Part shown: piece by piece, positions 22,773 to 36,563 of the stretch
Layout of the letters: each line of letters starts with the position of its first letter
How positions within the stretch are numbered: the stretch's first letter is position 1
Program-made: the position numbers and the translations under genes
The notes under the pieces: generated by a model
Database searches by the model: none
What the model was told of the DNA's origin: nothing
The model's input: only the letters and a program-made list of their open reading frames with translations
Assembly: GCF_021568905.1 (NCBI RefSeq)
Contig: NZ_JAKGSB010000002.1
Coordinates: forward strand, 434,001 to 498,000
From: Zavarzinia marina
GTDB taxonomy: Bacteria > Pseudomonadota > Alphaproteobacteria > Zavarziniales > Zavarziniaceae
Reading direction: 5' to 3'
DNA length: 64,000 nt

Positions 22773-22848
22773 GCCCAGGTAGCTCAGTTGGTAGAGCAGC
22801 GGATTGAAAATCCGCGTGTCGGTGGTTCGAATCCGCCCCTGGGCACCA
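22773..22848 (+). tRNA. tRNA-Phe (GAA)
   Basis: 76-nt cloverleaf with perfect 7-bp acceptor stem GCCCAGG/CCTGGGC, D arm AGCTCAGTTGGTAGAGC, anticodon loop TTGAAAA with GAA at 22806-22808, T arm GGTTCGAATCC and encoded ACCA at 22845-22848. The 3' flank holds the remains of a DUF4160 gene starting about 20 nt away. Confidence 0.97.
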
Positions 22849-30614: not shown

Positions 30615-32135
30615 TCAGGCCGTGCCGAGAAACAGGCGATAGGCGGGATTGTCGGTCTCGTCCTCGTAAGGATAGCCGAGCGCCGCGAGCTGGCGTTCGA
30701 GTCGCGGCCGGTCGGCCATGGCCACCTGAAGCCCGACCAGCACCCGGCCATAGTCGGCGCCGTGGTTGCGGTAGTGGAACAGGGTGATGTTCCAGTCCGG
30801 CCCGACACCGTCGAGGAAGCGCAGCAGGGCGCCCGGCCGTTCCGGAAACTCGAAGCGCAGCAGCAGTTCGTCGGCGAGGCCGGCCGGCGCGCGGCCGCCG
30901 ACCATGTAGCGGATGTGCAGCTTCGCCGTCTCATCCGCCGAAATGTCGAGCACGCGATGGCCGAGGCCCTCCAGCGCCGCGATGATCGGCGGCTTGTCGC
31001 GCCGCGCGTCCGCCAGCTTGATGCCGACGAAGACATGGGCATCGCCGCCCGCCGCGTAGCGGTAGTTGAATTCGGTGATGCTGCGGTCGCCCAGCACCTG
31101 GATGAAACGGCGATAGGATCCCGGCCGTTCCGGGATGGTGACCGCCAGCAGGATCTCCCGCGCCTCGCCGATCTCGGCCCGTTCGGCGACATGGCGCAGG
31201 CGGTCGAAATTCATGTTGGCGCCGCTGGCGATGGCGACCAGGGCCCCCGTCCGCTCCGGCACCCGGGCGGCATAGGCCTTGAGCCCCGCGAGCGACAATG
31301 CCCCCGCCGGCTCGGCGATGACGCGGACATCCTCGAACACGTCCTTCACGGCGGCGCAGATGGCGTCCGTATCGGCGGTGATCACATCGTCCAGCAGATC
31401 CCGGCACAGGCGGAAGGTCTCTTCCCCCGCCTGGCGCACGGCAACGCCGTCGGCGAAGAGGCCGACCCGGTCCAGCACCACCCGGTGCCCGGCCTCGATC
31501 GCCGCCTTCATCGAGGCGGCATCGACCGGCTCGACCCCGATCACCCTGGTCTCGGGCCGCAGGAACTTGACGTAGGAGGCGATGCCGGCGGCCAGCCCGC
31601 CGCCGCCGACGGGCACGAAGATCGCCTCGATCGGATCGGGGTGCTGATGCAGGATCTCCATGCCCACGGTGCCCTGGCCGGCGATCACGTCCGGATCGTC
31701 GTAAGGGTGGACGAAGGTCAGGCCCTGTTCGGCCTCGAGCGCGCGGGCGTGTTCATGGGCGACGTCGAAGGTATCGCCCGTCAGCACGATCTCCGCGCCG
31801 TGATAGCGCACCGCCTCGACCTTGATCGGGGGCGTGGTGACCGGCATGACGATGACCGCCCGGCAGCCCAGGCGCTTCGCGGAGAGGGCGACGCCCTGGG
31901 CGTGATTGCCGGCCGAGGCGCAGACCACGCCCGCCGCCCGCGCCTCGGGCGTCATGCGCACCAGCTTGTTGTAGGCGCCGCGGATCTTGAACGAGAAGAT
32001 GGGCTGCAGATCCTCGCGCTTCAGAAAGACGGAAGCGCCGATCCGCCCGCCGAGGCGCGGGAGCGGATCGAGCGGCGTCTGCTCCGCGACGTCATAGACG
32101 CGGGCATCGAGGATCTTGCGGACGTAGTCGGTCAA
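30615..32135 (-). CDS. ilvA: Threonine dehydratase (deaminase), biosynthetic
   Basis: 506-residue PLP enzyme making 2-oxobutyrate for isoleucine. Catalytic K50 in FSFKIRGAYNKL; the glycine-rich PLP phosphate loop is GGGGLAAG. Two ACT-like regulatory domains follow (about 330-410 and 425-505; motifs RPGSYRRFIQVLG and RPGALLRFLDGVG), as in E. coli IlvA, so isoleucine feedback inhibition is expected. Converges on TetR with a 9-nt gap. Divergent from the nickel transporter operon. Confidence 0.95.
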   Translation of the reverse strand: MTDYVRKILDARVYDVAEQTPLDPLPRLGGRIGASVFLKREDLQPIFSFKIRGAYNKLVRMTPEARAAGVVCASAGNHAQGVALSAKRLGCRAVIVMPVTTPPIKVEAVRYHGAEIVLTGDTFDVAHEHARALEAEQGLTFVHPYDDPDVIAGQGTVGMEILHQHPDPIEAIFVPVGGGGLAAGIASYVKFLRPETRVIGVEPVDAASMKAAIEAGHRVVLDRVGLFADGVAVRQAGEETFRLCRDLLDDVITADTDAICAAVKDVFEDVRVIAEPAGALSLAGLKAYAARVPERTGALVAIASGANMNFDRLRHVAERAEIGEAREILLAVTIPERPGSYRRFIQVLGDRSITEFNYRYAAGGDAHVFVGIKLADARRDKPPIIAALEGLGHRVLDISADETAKLHIRYMVGGRAPAGLADELLLRFEFPERPGALLRFLDGVGPDWNITLFHYRNHGADYGRVLVGLQVAMADRPRLERQLAALGYPYEDETDNPAYRLFLGTA

Positions 32136-32214
32136 AATCGGCTCTCCTGGACAGAGCGCCGGTATAGCGCATGCGCGCCGTCCTGTCGCCGCGATGCGGT
32201 ATTTCCCCTTGCCG

Positions 32215-32242
32215 GTATGACGAATCTCCTAAATCATCATAC
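32215..32242. promoter_or_regulatory. NikR-type operator
   Basis: GTATGA (32215-32220) and TCATAC (32237-32242) are perfect inverted half-sites separated by exactly 16 nt. This is the operator of nickel-responsive NikR as defined in E. coli. It lies 28 nt upstream of the first gene of the nickel transporter operon, in the ilvA-nik divergent region. It predicts repression under sufficient nickel. No nikR gene is in this window. Confidence 0.85.
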
Positions 32243-32270
32243 CGTCATCGCCAGGGGAGTTCAGATCGAC

Positions 32271-33050
32271 ATGCGCGCCGCCCTTCTCGCCTTCGCCCTT
32301 TCGACGGGCGCCCTTTCGACGGGCTTCACCGCGCCGGCCTTCGCCCATTTCCAGGAATTGCTGCCGAGCGCCGACGTCCTGCCCGAGGGCGGCACGGTCG
32401 ATCTCGATCTCGTCTTCACCCATCCGATGGACGGCGGTCCGCAGATGCGCATGGAACGCCCCGCGCGCTTCGCCATGCTGCGCGACGGCGAGACGGTCGA
32501 TCTGGCGGGCGCCCTGGTCGAGGTGCTGGCCGGCGGCGAGCGCGCGTGGCGCGCCAGCGTCGACCTGAAGACGCCCGGCGCCGCCGTCTTCTTCGTCGAA
32601 CCCCGGCCCTATTGGGAACCGGCGGAAGGCAAATACATCGTCCACTACACCAAGGTGATCGTCGACAGTTACGCCACCGGCGAGGGTTGGGACGCCATGG
32701 TCGGCCTGCCGGTGGAAATCCGTCCCCTGACCCGTCCGACCGGGCTCTGGACCGGCAATCTCTTCACCGGCGTCGTCACCAAGGCCGGCGCGCCGGTGCC
32801 CTTCGCCGAGATCGAGGTCGAATACGTCAACGACGGCACGGTCACCGCGCCCAACGACGCCTTCGTGACCCAGGTGATCACGGCCGACGCCGACGGCACC
32901 TTTTCCTACGCCATGCCGCGCGCCGGCTGGTGGGGCTTCGCCGCCCTGACCGAGGCCGACGCCACGATGAAGAACCCGGCAGGCGAGGACGTGCCGGTCG
33001 AGGAAGGCGCCCTGATCTGGGTGAAGGCAACCGATATGGGCGGGCCCTGA
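32271..33050 (+). CDS. nikK: DUF4198 periplasmic nickel-uptake protein (NikK-like)
   Basis: 259-residue exported protein. Signal peptide ends TAPAFAHFQE, leaving a His near the mature N-terminus. DUF4198 fold: HFQELLPSADVL, FTHPMDGGPQMRM, KYIVHYTKVIVDSY, and VYxxN-like ending FAALTEAD. Proteins of this family (NikK) accompany nickel ECF transporters and bind the metal outside the membrane. ATG at 32271, with a GGGGAG about 12 nt upstream. First gene of the nikKMLQO operon under the NikR palindrome. Confidence 0.85.
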   Translation: MRAALLAFALSTGALSTGFTAPAFAHFQELLPSADVLPEGGTVDLDLVFTHPMDGGPQMRMERPARFAMLRDGETVDLAGALVEVLAGGERAWRASVDLKTPGAAVFFVEPRPYWEPAEGKYIVHYTKVIVDSYATGEGWDAMVGLPVEIRPLTRPTGLWTGNLFTGVVTKAGAPVPFAEIEVEYVNDGTVTAPNDAFVTQVITADADGTFSYAMPRAGWWGFAALTEADATMKNPAGEDVPVEEGALIWVKATDMGGP

Positions 33051-33065
33051 GACGGAGGCGGCACC

Positions 33066-33677
33066 ATGGCCCATATCCCCGACGGCGTCCTGTCCCTGCC
33101 GGTCGCGGCGGCCGGCTGGGCCGGGGCCGTCGCCATGGCGGGCGTCGCGCTCCGCCGGCTGGAGGAAGAGCGCATTCCCGAGACCGCGATCCTGGCCGCC
33201 GTCTTCTTCACCGTCTCCCTGGTCGCGGTGCCGGTCGGGCCGTCCAGCGTGCATCTCCTGCTGTCGGCGTTGATGGGATTGATGATCGGGCCGCTCGTCA
33301 CCGTGGCGGTCATGGTCGGGCTCGCCCTGCAGTTGCTGCTCTTCGGCTTTGGCGGGCTGACCAGTTTCGGCGTCAATACGGTGAACATCGCCCTGCCGGG
33401 CGTCGTCGCGGCGCTGGTGCTGGCGGGCCCGGTGGCTCGCGCGGCACCGGGCCGGGCCGCTCTTCTGGCCGGGATCGCCGGCGCCGTTTCGGTGCTGGCG
33501 ACCGGGGGCGGAGTCGCCCTCGCCCTCGCCCTGTCGTCGGGAGACTACGTGCCGTCGGCCCGGGTGGTGGTGGTCACCTATCTGCCGCTGGCGGCGGCGG
33601 AAGCCCTGGTCACCGGTTTCGCGATCGGCTTCCTGAAACGGGTCAAGCCCGACGCCCTGATGGGCGCCACTCCATGA
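33066..33677 (+). CDS. nikM: Nickel ECF transporter substrate-binding component
   Basis: 203-residue CbiM/NikM protein with about 6-7 hydrophobic helices. N-terminus MAHIPDGVLS: removal of Met leaves Ala-His, keeping the second-position His needed for the square-planar metal site of this family. The HLLLSALMGLMIGP helix and the FGGLTSFGVNTVNIALPG stretch are conserved. Nickel rather than cobalt is inferred from the NikR site and NikK/NikL genes. Stop overlaps the nikL start (ATGA). Confidence 0.92.
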   Translation: MAHIPDGVLSLPVAAAGWAGAVAMAGVALRRLEEERIPETAILAAVFFTVSLVAVPVGPSSVHLLLSALMGLMIGPLVTVAVMVGLALQLLLFGFGGLTSFGVNTVNIALPGVVAALVLAGPVARAAPGRAALLAGIAGAVSVLATGGGVALALALSSGDYVPSARVVVVTYLPLAAAEALVTGFAIGFLKRVKPDALMGATP

Positions 33678-34267
33678 TCCGCCGTCTCATCCTGGCCCTC
33701 GCCCTCGTGCTGGCGGCAACGGCGCCGGCGGCGGCGCACCGCCTGAAACTCTTCGCCACGGTGGAGGACGGCGTCATCACCGGCTATGCCTTCTTCATCG
33801 GCGGCGGCAGGCCCCAGGGGGCCGAGATCGTGATCCGCGACGCGGCGGGTCGGGAGGCTCACCGCACGACGACCGACGCCGAAGGCGGCTTTGCCTGGAG
33901 GCCGCCCGCGCCGGGCGACTTCACCGTGACCGTCGATGCCCGGGACGGCCATGTGGCGACGGCCGCGATCGGCCCGACCCGCTTCGCCGCCATTCCCACC
34001 CCCGCCGCGCCGGCGCCCGCAAGTCCCGAGTCGCCCGCAAATTCCGGGGCGCCCGCAAATTCAGGTGCACCCGCAAATTCGGGTGCGGCGGCGATCGAGC
34101 AGGCTGTCGACCGGGCCGTGGCGCGCCAGATCCGCCCCCTCCTCGAAGCCTGTGACGCGGCGGAGGGGCGGATCCGCTTCAACGACGTGGTCGGCGGCAT
34201 CGGCATGATCGTCGGCCTCGGCGGCATGGCACTCTGGTTCGCCGGGCGCCGGGGAAAGCGGCGATGA
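33674..34267 (+). CDS. nikL: Nickel ECF transporter accessory membrane protein (NikL-like)
   Basis: 197-residue protein. Signal peptide ending APAAAH, so the mature part begins with His; a carboxypeptidase-like beta domain ([33 protein letters not shown]), a low-complexity linker built of three 18-nt repeats, a helix [20 protein letters not shown], and a single C-terminal membrane helix ([18 protein letters not shown]). This is the usual NikL layout. Both ends overlap neighbours by 4 nt. It likely aids metal delivery to NikM. Confidence 0.85.
34033..34086 (+). repeat. Three tandem 18-nt repeats in nikL linker
   Basis: Three units at 34033, 34051 and 34069 (GCCCGCAAATTC followed by six variable bases). 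They encode the peptide repeat PANSGA in the linker between the beta domain and the membrane region. The frame is kept, so copy-number change would lengthen the linker without a frameshift. Confidence 0.9.
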
Positions 34268-34983
34268 TCGCCGGCGTGGCGCCCGCCGCGCGGCTGTTCG
34301 CCGCCTTGGTCCTGGTGACGGCGATCGCGGCCCTGCGCCATCCCATGGCCCAGGGCGTGGCGTTGATCGGGGCATTCGTCCTCGTGTTGCTCGCGGGCAG
34401 GCCGCCTGCGGTCCTGCTGCATCGGCTGCGCCATGTCGAGGGGTTTCTCGTGCTGCTGCTGGTCATGCTGCCGTTCACGGTCGAAGGTACATCCCTGGTC
34501 GCCATCGGGCCGCTGGACGCGAGCGCGGAGGGGCTGTGGCGCGCCTTCGGCATCGTCATGAAGGTGAATGCCGCCGCGGCATTGCTCTTCGCCCTGATCG
34601 GCGATCTGGATCCCGTGCGCCTCGGCCATGCGGCGCGGCGCCTGGGGGTGCCGCTGCGGCTGGTGCAGGTGTTCGTTTTCACCGCGCGTTACGTCGACCT
34701 GTTCCGGGACGAGATCCGCCGTCTGCGCGAGGCGATGCGCGCCCGCGCCTTCACCGCCGGAACCTCGCTGCACGCCTTCCGCAGCTACGGCAACATGGCC
34801 GGGATGGTGCTGGTCCGCGCCCTCGAGCGGGCGAAGCGGGTGGAGGAGGCGATGCGCTGCCGAGCCTTCGACGGGCGCCTGCCGGCGATCGGCCCGCCCG
34901 AATCCCGGGCGGGCGCGGCCGCCTGCACCGCCATGGCCCTGGTCGCGGCCGGCACCCTGCTGGCCCTGGACCTGATGCCGTGA
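34264..34983 (+). CDS. nikQ: Nickel ECF transporter transmembrane (T) component
   Basis: 239-residue CbiQ-family protein with about 5 helices. The cytoplasmic coupling motifs ARA/CRA are visible as [11 protein letters not shown] and [35 protein letters not shown] matches the family core. It links NikM to the ATPase NikO. ATG overlaps the nikL stop and its TGA overlaps the nikO GTG. Confidence 0.92.
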
Positions 34984-35723
34984 CCCCGCTGCTCGCCCTG
35001 TCGGACGTAACGGTCGAGCGCGGCGGGCGGGCGGTGCTGGCGAACGCCTGCCTCGAACTTCGAGCGGGGGAGCGCCTGGCCCTCGTCGGGGCCAATGGTG
35101 CCGGCAAGACCACCTTGCTGCGCACCCTGATCGGTCTCGAAAAGCCGGTGCGCGGCACGGTGAGCGCCTTCGGCACGCCACGCCGGGCGGAGAAGGATTT
35201 CCGCGCCGTCCGCGCCAGGGCGGGCTTCCTGTTCCAGGACGCGGATGATCAATTGTTCTGCCCGACCGTGATCGACGACGTCGCCTTCGGTCCCCTGAAC
35301 CTCGGGCTCGACGCCCGCGACGCCGCCGACAAGGCACGGGATATCCTCGATCGACTGCGCCTCGGCCATCTCGCCGAGCGCGTCACCCACGGACTTTCCG
35401 GCGGGGAGAAACGGCTGGTGGCGCTGGCCGGCGTGCTGGCCATGGAACCCGAGGCATTATTGCTGGACGAGCCGACCAACGCCCTCGACCATGATCATTA
35501 CCTGCGCCTGCTCGACATCCTGACCGGCCTGCCGATGGCGATGATCGTCGTCTCCCACGACCGGCGCTTCCTGCACCGGCTGGCGACGCGGGTGGTGGCG
35601 TTGCAGGGCGGGCGGCTGTGGCCCGCGGCCTTTCACAGCCACCCCCACACCCACGACCATCTGCATCTTCACGTCGAAGATGCCGGGCACACCGAAAGCC
35701 CCGTGGCCGATCACCGCCACTGA
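34980..35723 (+). CDS. nikO: Nickel ECF transporter ATPase with His-rich tail
   Basis: 247-residue CbiO-type ABC ATPase. Walker [10 protein letters not shown] (K43), Q-loop [10 protein letters not shown], signature LSGGEKRL, Walker [13 protein letters not shown], and switch histidine SHDRR are intact. The last 30 residues are metal-ligand rich ([13 protein letters not shown], then GHTE and DHRH), about ten His, which is not part of the catalytic fold. GTG start overlaps the nikQ stop. Drives uptake of nickel with NikQ and NikM. Confidence 0.93.
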
Positions 35724-35730
35724 ACGGCCG

Positions 35731-36141
35731 TCAGCCCGCCTTGCGCCGCCCCATCGTCAGCGCGAAGAGCGCGCCGCCGCCGACGAAGAGGGGGAAGGAC
35801 ACCAAGGCACCGCGCTTCACGAAATCGAGGGCGCGGTCGATCAGCTTGGCAATGCCGTCGGGATCGCCATGATCGCTGAGCACCGCGAAGATGAAATGCC
35901 CGACGAAGAGCGCCAGCACCCCGAGCCCGACACCTTGATGCAGGCGGACGGGACGGCCCTTGTTGATCAGCATGACGACCAGCGCGGTCGCGAAGCTTGC
36001 AACCCCGGCCCCGACCAGGGTCGCCACATCGTGCCGCCCGAAGACGCCGCCGGGCCACAGTGCCTCGGCGGCGGCATGGGAAAGCCCGGCCATGACGAGG
36101 CCGAAGACGAGCGGCGGCAGGATCAGTCGTGTGAAGCTCAC
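35731..36141 (-). CDS. Small membrane protein of unknown function
   Basis: 136 residues, four hydrophobic helices (about 6-24, 40-60, 68-88, 108-128), Lys/Arg-rich C-terminus MGRRKAG. No motif recognised. Starts at GTG 36141, overlapping the stop of the upstream membrane-protein gene (GTGA). Converges on nikO with a 7-nt gap. Belongs to a group of three short membrane-protein genes on the minus strand. Confidence 0.65.
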   Translation of the reverse strand: MSFTRLILPPLVFGLVMAGLSHAAAEALWPGGVFGRHDVATLVGAGVASFATALVVMLINKGRPVRLHQGVGLGVLALFVGHFIFAVLSDHGDPDGIAKLIDRALDFVKRGALVSFPLFVGGGALFALTMGRRKAG

Positions 36142-36563
36142 TCTTCCTCCTTCGGCCGAAAGCGCCAGAGGCGGCTGGCCATTGCGAAGACGACGGAATA
36201 GACGATGCCGGCGAGGAGAGCGTGGCGCCCCACCACGACCAGCGACAGAAAGACGATCCAGAGCGCACCGCTGACCAGATCCACAGGTTTGTCGCCGGCC
36301 TCGACGCCGGCATAAAGGAGCAATTGGATCGCGGCGAAGAGATGGAAGGCGCAGACCACGGCGATACCGATCAGGGCGGCGAAGCCTGGATGGACGAGCC
36401 CTGAACGGTCGATCGCGACCGCCCAGGCACCGACGGCGAACAGCGTGGTGCCGGCCATCAGCCACAGGGGCACTTCGTCTTCCGCCCCGCCCAGCGCCAC
36501 CACCAGAAAGGCGGCGACGAGGCCGAAGCCGAGCGACTCGAGGAAGAAGCCGATCCGCGTCAT
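36138..36563 (-). CDS. Small membrane protein of unknown function
   Basis: 141 residues with four predicted helices (about 8-26, 32-52, 60-84, 96-128) and a charged C-terminus RFRPKEEE. No recognised domain. Overlaps the next membrane-protein gene by 4 nt, suggesting the two products work together. Confidence 0.65.
   Translation of the reverse strand: MTRIGFFLESLGFGLVAAFLVVALGGAEDEVPLWLMAGTTLFAVGAWAVAIDRSGLVHPGFAALIGIAVVCAFHLFAAIQLLLYAGVEAGDKPVDLVSGALWIVFLSLVVVGRHALLAGIVYSVVFAMASRLWRFRPKEEE

Follow-up and report, generated by a model that had tools for sequence, protein, structure and literature searches.

Which metal does the CbiMQO-type ECF transporter encoded at this locus of Zavarzinia marina take up, and what controls its expression? 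A preliminary description of the 64,000-nucleotide stretch analysed here (the window) had proposed a nickel, not cobalt, uptake system: a nikKMLQO operon with an exact GTATGA-N16-TCATAC, taken to be the E. coli NikR operator, 28 nt before nikK, and with nikR itself outside the window. We followed up these proposals by profile searches of the genes, by pattern scans of the genome and by comparison with orthologous operons.

The predicted operator and the operon

The palindrome before nikK, GTATGACGAATCTCCTAAATCATCATAC, matches GTATGA-N16-TCATAC with 0 mismatches, and the nikK ATG follows after a gap of 28 nt (32243-32270), just as had been described (Table 1). The pattern is the textbook enterobacterial NikR consensus (PMC7055735), and it stands just before nikK, where an operator of the E. 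coli-type NikR regulon would be placed. Its equation with the E. coli operator held in part. That operator, GTATGACGAATACTTAAAATCGTCATAC, which precedes the nikA start by 37 nt and was checked in 5250/5426 E. coli genomes, has the identical half-sites and N16 spacing, but the whole sites agree at only 22 of 28 positions. In the window, 0.25 matches with up to two mismatches would be expected by chance. Across the whole genome (3.95 Mb), the window operator was the sole match with at most one mismatch; allowing two yielded ten places, the same number as a reversed control pattern, so that the remaining genomic matches are background.

An invariant CnCTTG lies directly 5′ of the palindrome in the alignment of six family genomes. 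Judged by its sequence, this conserved CTTGCCG-type stretch is a possible −35 element, in which case NikR would cover the promoter core. A scan around the operator for sigma-70 consensus promoters and terminators found none.

The five genes of the proposed operon were all recognized by Pfam or NCBIfam profiles. Three of the four gene junctions are 4-nt overlaps, and the contiguous K, M, L, Q and O subunits place the system among the NikKMLQO ECF transporters. The best NCBIfam models for nikO are cbiO-like. NikM, with the N-terminus MAHIPDG, is related to the solved T. tengcongensis-type CbiM/NikM structures 4m5b/4m58. Two of its histidines, His3 and the one in SSVHLLL, coincide in the alignment with histidines of these structures; after loss of the first Met, the former would be residue 2.

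Three further features of the region may be recorded. The His-rich tail of NikO, ending ...HRH, is kept in the sister species and possibly serves in metal binding or sensing. In the periplasmic linker of NikL there is a short tandem repeat of PANSGA. Convergent to the operon, 3′ of nikO, are two small predicted membrane-type proteins, for which Pfam and NCBIfam gave no match.

Table 1 Coordinates of features in the window and at other loci
Feature	Location	Coordinates	Strand	Evidence or remark
tRNA	Window	22773-22845		RNA search
ilvA	Window	30615-32135	-	divergent from nikK
Conserved CTTGCCG-type stretch, possible −35 element	Window	32206-32214	+	abuts predicted operator
Predicted NikR operator, GTATGA-N16-TCATAC	Window	32215-32242	.	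exact match; conserved in orthologues
nikK-M-L-Q-O operon	Window	32271-35723	+	
nikK, secreted DUF4198 protein	Window	32271-33050	+	PF10670, 200 bits
nikM, metal-specific S component of ECF transporter (CbiM/NikM family)	Window	33066-33677	+	PF01891, 167 bits; NF004903, 263 bits, above cut-off
nikL, accessory membrane subunit	Window	33674-34267	+	NF058648 (NikL family), 171 bits, above cut-off
NikL periplasmic linker	Window	34020-34090		
nikQ, T component (CbiQ)	Window	34264-34983	+	TIGR02454, 140.6 bits; PF02361, 96 bits
nikO, ATPase, GTG start, His-rich C-terminal tail	Window	34980-35723	+	PF00005, 102.8 bits
NikO His-rich tail	Window	35636-35723		
Two small predicted membrane-type proteins	Window	35731-36563	-	
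NikR	Contig G000:C9	about 1134405-1134860	-	PF08753, 100.7 bits
Cobalamin riboswitch	Locus L031	6402-6620	-	
Cobalamin riboswitch	Locus L031	6689-6899	+	
Second K-M-L-Q-O operon	Locus L031	7058-10477		
K	Locus L031	7058-7855		
M	Locus L031	7867-8490		
L	Locus L031	8487-9047		
O	Locus L031	9833-10477		
5_ureB_sRNA match	Locus L033	7587-7858	+	Rfam
5_ureB_sRNA match	Locus L075	8962-9253	-	Rfam

NikR and the conservation of its site

As stated in the preliminary description, nikR is not in the window; a search elsewhere, proposed there as a check, located a single NikR in the genome, on a different contig. The protein aligns with E. coli NikR at 52% identity; an independent search of solved structures gives the same alignment, with E. 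coli NikR as the best PDB match (1q5v/2hzv, E 9e-39). E. coli NikR reads its operator through the strand QRVTITLDD. This strand is identical in the Zavarzinia protein, and the metal ligands H76, H87, H89 and C95 are all retained; the genome encodes a NikR with the RHH strand and the complete metal site that mark a NikR regulon.

We then considered orthologous operons, the second proposed check. Genus, family and order scopes all give the same group (at most 7), and the family comparison comprised these seven genomes. Six of them carry both nikK and NikR, and in each of the six a scan at up to one mismatch gives a single site, immediately in front of nikK. Neither gene is present in G002, the seventh genome; its one exact palindrome, located inside a monooxygenase coding sequence, was rejected as a chance occurrence. 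The wider set consisted of 80 named nikK loci, mostly from Alphaproteobacteria, with 300 nt upstream scanned. An exact site was present at 33 and a site with at most one mismatch at 41, as against 0/80 for the reversed control in either count. M-L-Q-O follow nikK in order at 63 of the 80 loci, and nikR is found near nikK, within the fetched flank, at about half, often divergent and immediately upstream. Since exact palindromes do arise by chance, as in G002, the window site could in principle be another such match, but its conservation directly before nikK, in the family and in the wider set, has already refuted that explanation, to which we assign a negligible probability.

The site also tracks its presumed regulator. 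NikR was found in 44 of 50 genomes drawn from the wider nikK set, and sites with at most three mismatches occur in 32 of these 44 versus none of the six genomes without NikR. Three mismatch thresholds were tried in this one-sided Fisher test (p 0.037, 0.008 and, for the counts just given, 0.001), and the p values are only indicative because the genomes were hand-chosen, not random, and are mutually related. In the other 12 NikR-bearing genomes, the 300 nt upstream of nikK contain nothing recognisable as a site; thus, the link between NikR and the site is not universal. A site that is conserved in orthologues and absent where NikR is absent is nevertheless what a NikR regulon presents. Neither of the two outcomes named beforehand as refuting the proposal, a genome lacking NikR or an unconserved site, was observed.

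In some Beijerinckiaceae/Rhodoblastus-type genomes, variant operators (TTATGTAAAA...TTCATAA; GTATGA...GTGCTTAT) precede nikK (loci L068, L070, L071 and L118; L086, L104 and L105), which suggests a drift of NikR specificity.

NikR is known to act as an activator in H. pylori, and the operator sits between nikK and the divergent ilvA, so that NikR might activate the operon, or the site might also serve ilvA. We regard this as very improbable, given that the site keeps its position relative to nikK (22-30 nt or more ahead of it) in taxa whose upstream neighbours differ, and that an E. coli-type NikR favours repression of nikK.

Nickel or cobalt

No cobalamin riboswitch was detected in the window, as had been claimed; the RNA search there gave only a tRNA. 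A second K-M-L-Q-O operon of the same genome, at locus L031 (G000:C15:126000-140000), adjoins B12 biosynthesis (cob) genes and a BtuB-like receptor and has a cobalamin riboswitch (RF00174; 117 bits) in front of it. Two divergent cobalamin riboswitches lie about 70 nt apart at this locus, and the pair serves the BtuB-like receptor and the cobalt-type transporter. The genome scan found no NikR site at the L031 operon, whose M subunit is 45% identical to that of the window operon. In the other family genomes searched, no second K was found at E<=1e-10. The Caenispirillum orthologues (L106 and L115) are without NikR and have a cobalamin riboswitch before K. Given that K-M-L-Q-O operons also occur under B12 riboswitches, K and L alone do not mark nickel; it is the regulatory element that discriminates.

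The existence of such cobalt-type operons, here, in Caenispirillum and in a few proteobacteria (PMC2667541), lends some weight to the view that the window encodes a cobalt or mixed Ni/Co importer merely placed behind a NikR site, as does the label of cobalt transporter that NCBI CbiM-family models give the M subunit. We consider this improbable: the window operon has neither a cobalamin riboswitch nor a B12 gene, but a NikR operator instead, and the separate cobalt-type paralogue already fills the role in this genome. The proposal of nickel rather than cobalt is accordingly favoured by the NikR site versus the riboswitch-linked paralogue, with the substrate itself predicted from these sequence features. 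The two paralogous importers probably split nickel (NikR) and cobalt (riboswitch) between them, forming a natural pair for mapping the metal choice of M, K and L.

The NikR operator and a full urease cluster (ureDABCEFG) elsewhere in the genome link the operon to nickel rather than to B12, and urease is the likely nickel client. A second PF00449 match, on contig C15, was partial and weak and belongs to another protein. We rejected [NiFe] hydrogenase as a client, its model giving only a sub-threshold, 68-position partial match (21.7 bits; cut-off, 25.8), probably to complex I. No NicO-family transporter was found in the genome. Rfam 5_ureB_sRNA matches were seen at two loci; the one at L033 is antisense to ureC/ureB coding sequence, and both probably reflect coding conservation.

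Proposed regulation and relation to known systems

We conclude that the window operon is very probably a nickel-repressed nickel-uptake system under NikR; NikR binding, repression, the nickel substrate and the urease client are each predicted. NikK-M-L-Q-O would assemble as an ECF-type importer. NikR, supplied from its unlinked gene on another contig, would bind the palindrome before nikK as Ni-NikR and block transcription once the cytoplasm has enough Ni(II); under nickel scarcity the operon would be expressed and nickel imported, most probably for urease. Several observations count against this reading. The spacer differs from that of E. coli at 6/16 positions, the inner operator arms are less symmetric than in the sister species, NCBIfam names the M subunit 'cobalt transporter CbiM', and ECF NikM/CbiM proteins are able to carry both Ni and Co.

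The arrangement resembles NikR-nikABCDE of E. coli in its half-sites, spacing and NikR strand, and in having the operator just before the first gene of the importer. It differs in that the importer is the ECF transporter NikKMLQO rather than NikABCDE, that nikR is unlinked to its target and that the client is probably urease, not hydrogenase. In delta-proteobacteria, predicted NikR palindromes at nikKMLQO or nikMQO operons have the consensus GTGTTAC-N13/14-GTAACAC (PMC545781); both have the five-subunit transporter behind a palindrome predicted to bind NikR, but the window site is of the enterobacterial type. Alphaproteobacterial NikKMLQO systems include B12-riboswitch versions, such as NikK1ML1QO of Rhodopseudomonas palustris (PMC2667541), which has the same architecture and to which the L031 operon corresponds; its regulation is of the cobalt type, whereas the window operon has predicted NikR control. 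Both modes of control of nikKMLQO have already been published (PMC545781, PMC2667541), and the window operon is a clear but ordinary addition to a known regulatory system. Standard annotation would name its transporter a cobalt transporter; the present analysis assigns it a metal and a regulator, and the pairing of the operon with the L031 paralogue offers a good test system for the metal specificity of ECF S components. At the strength given above, the reach of the E. coli-type NikR code would come to include Zavarzinia and an ECF importer.
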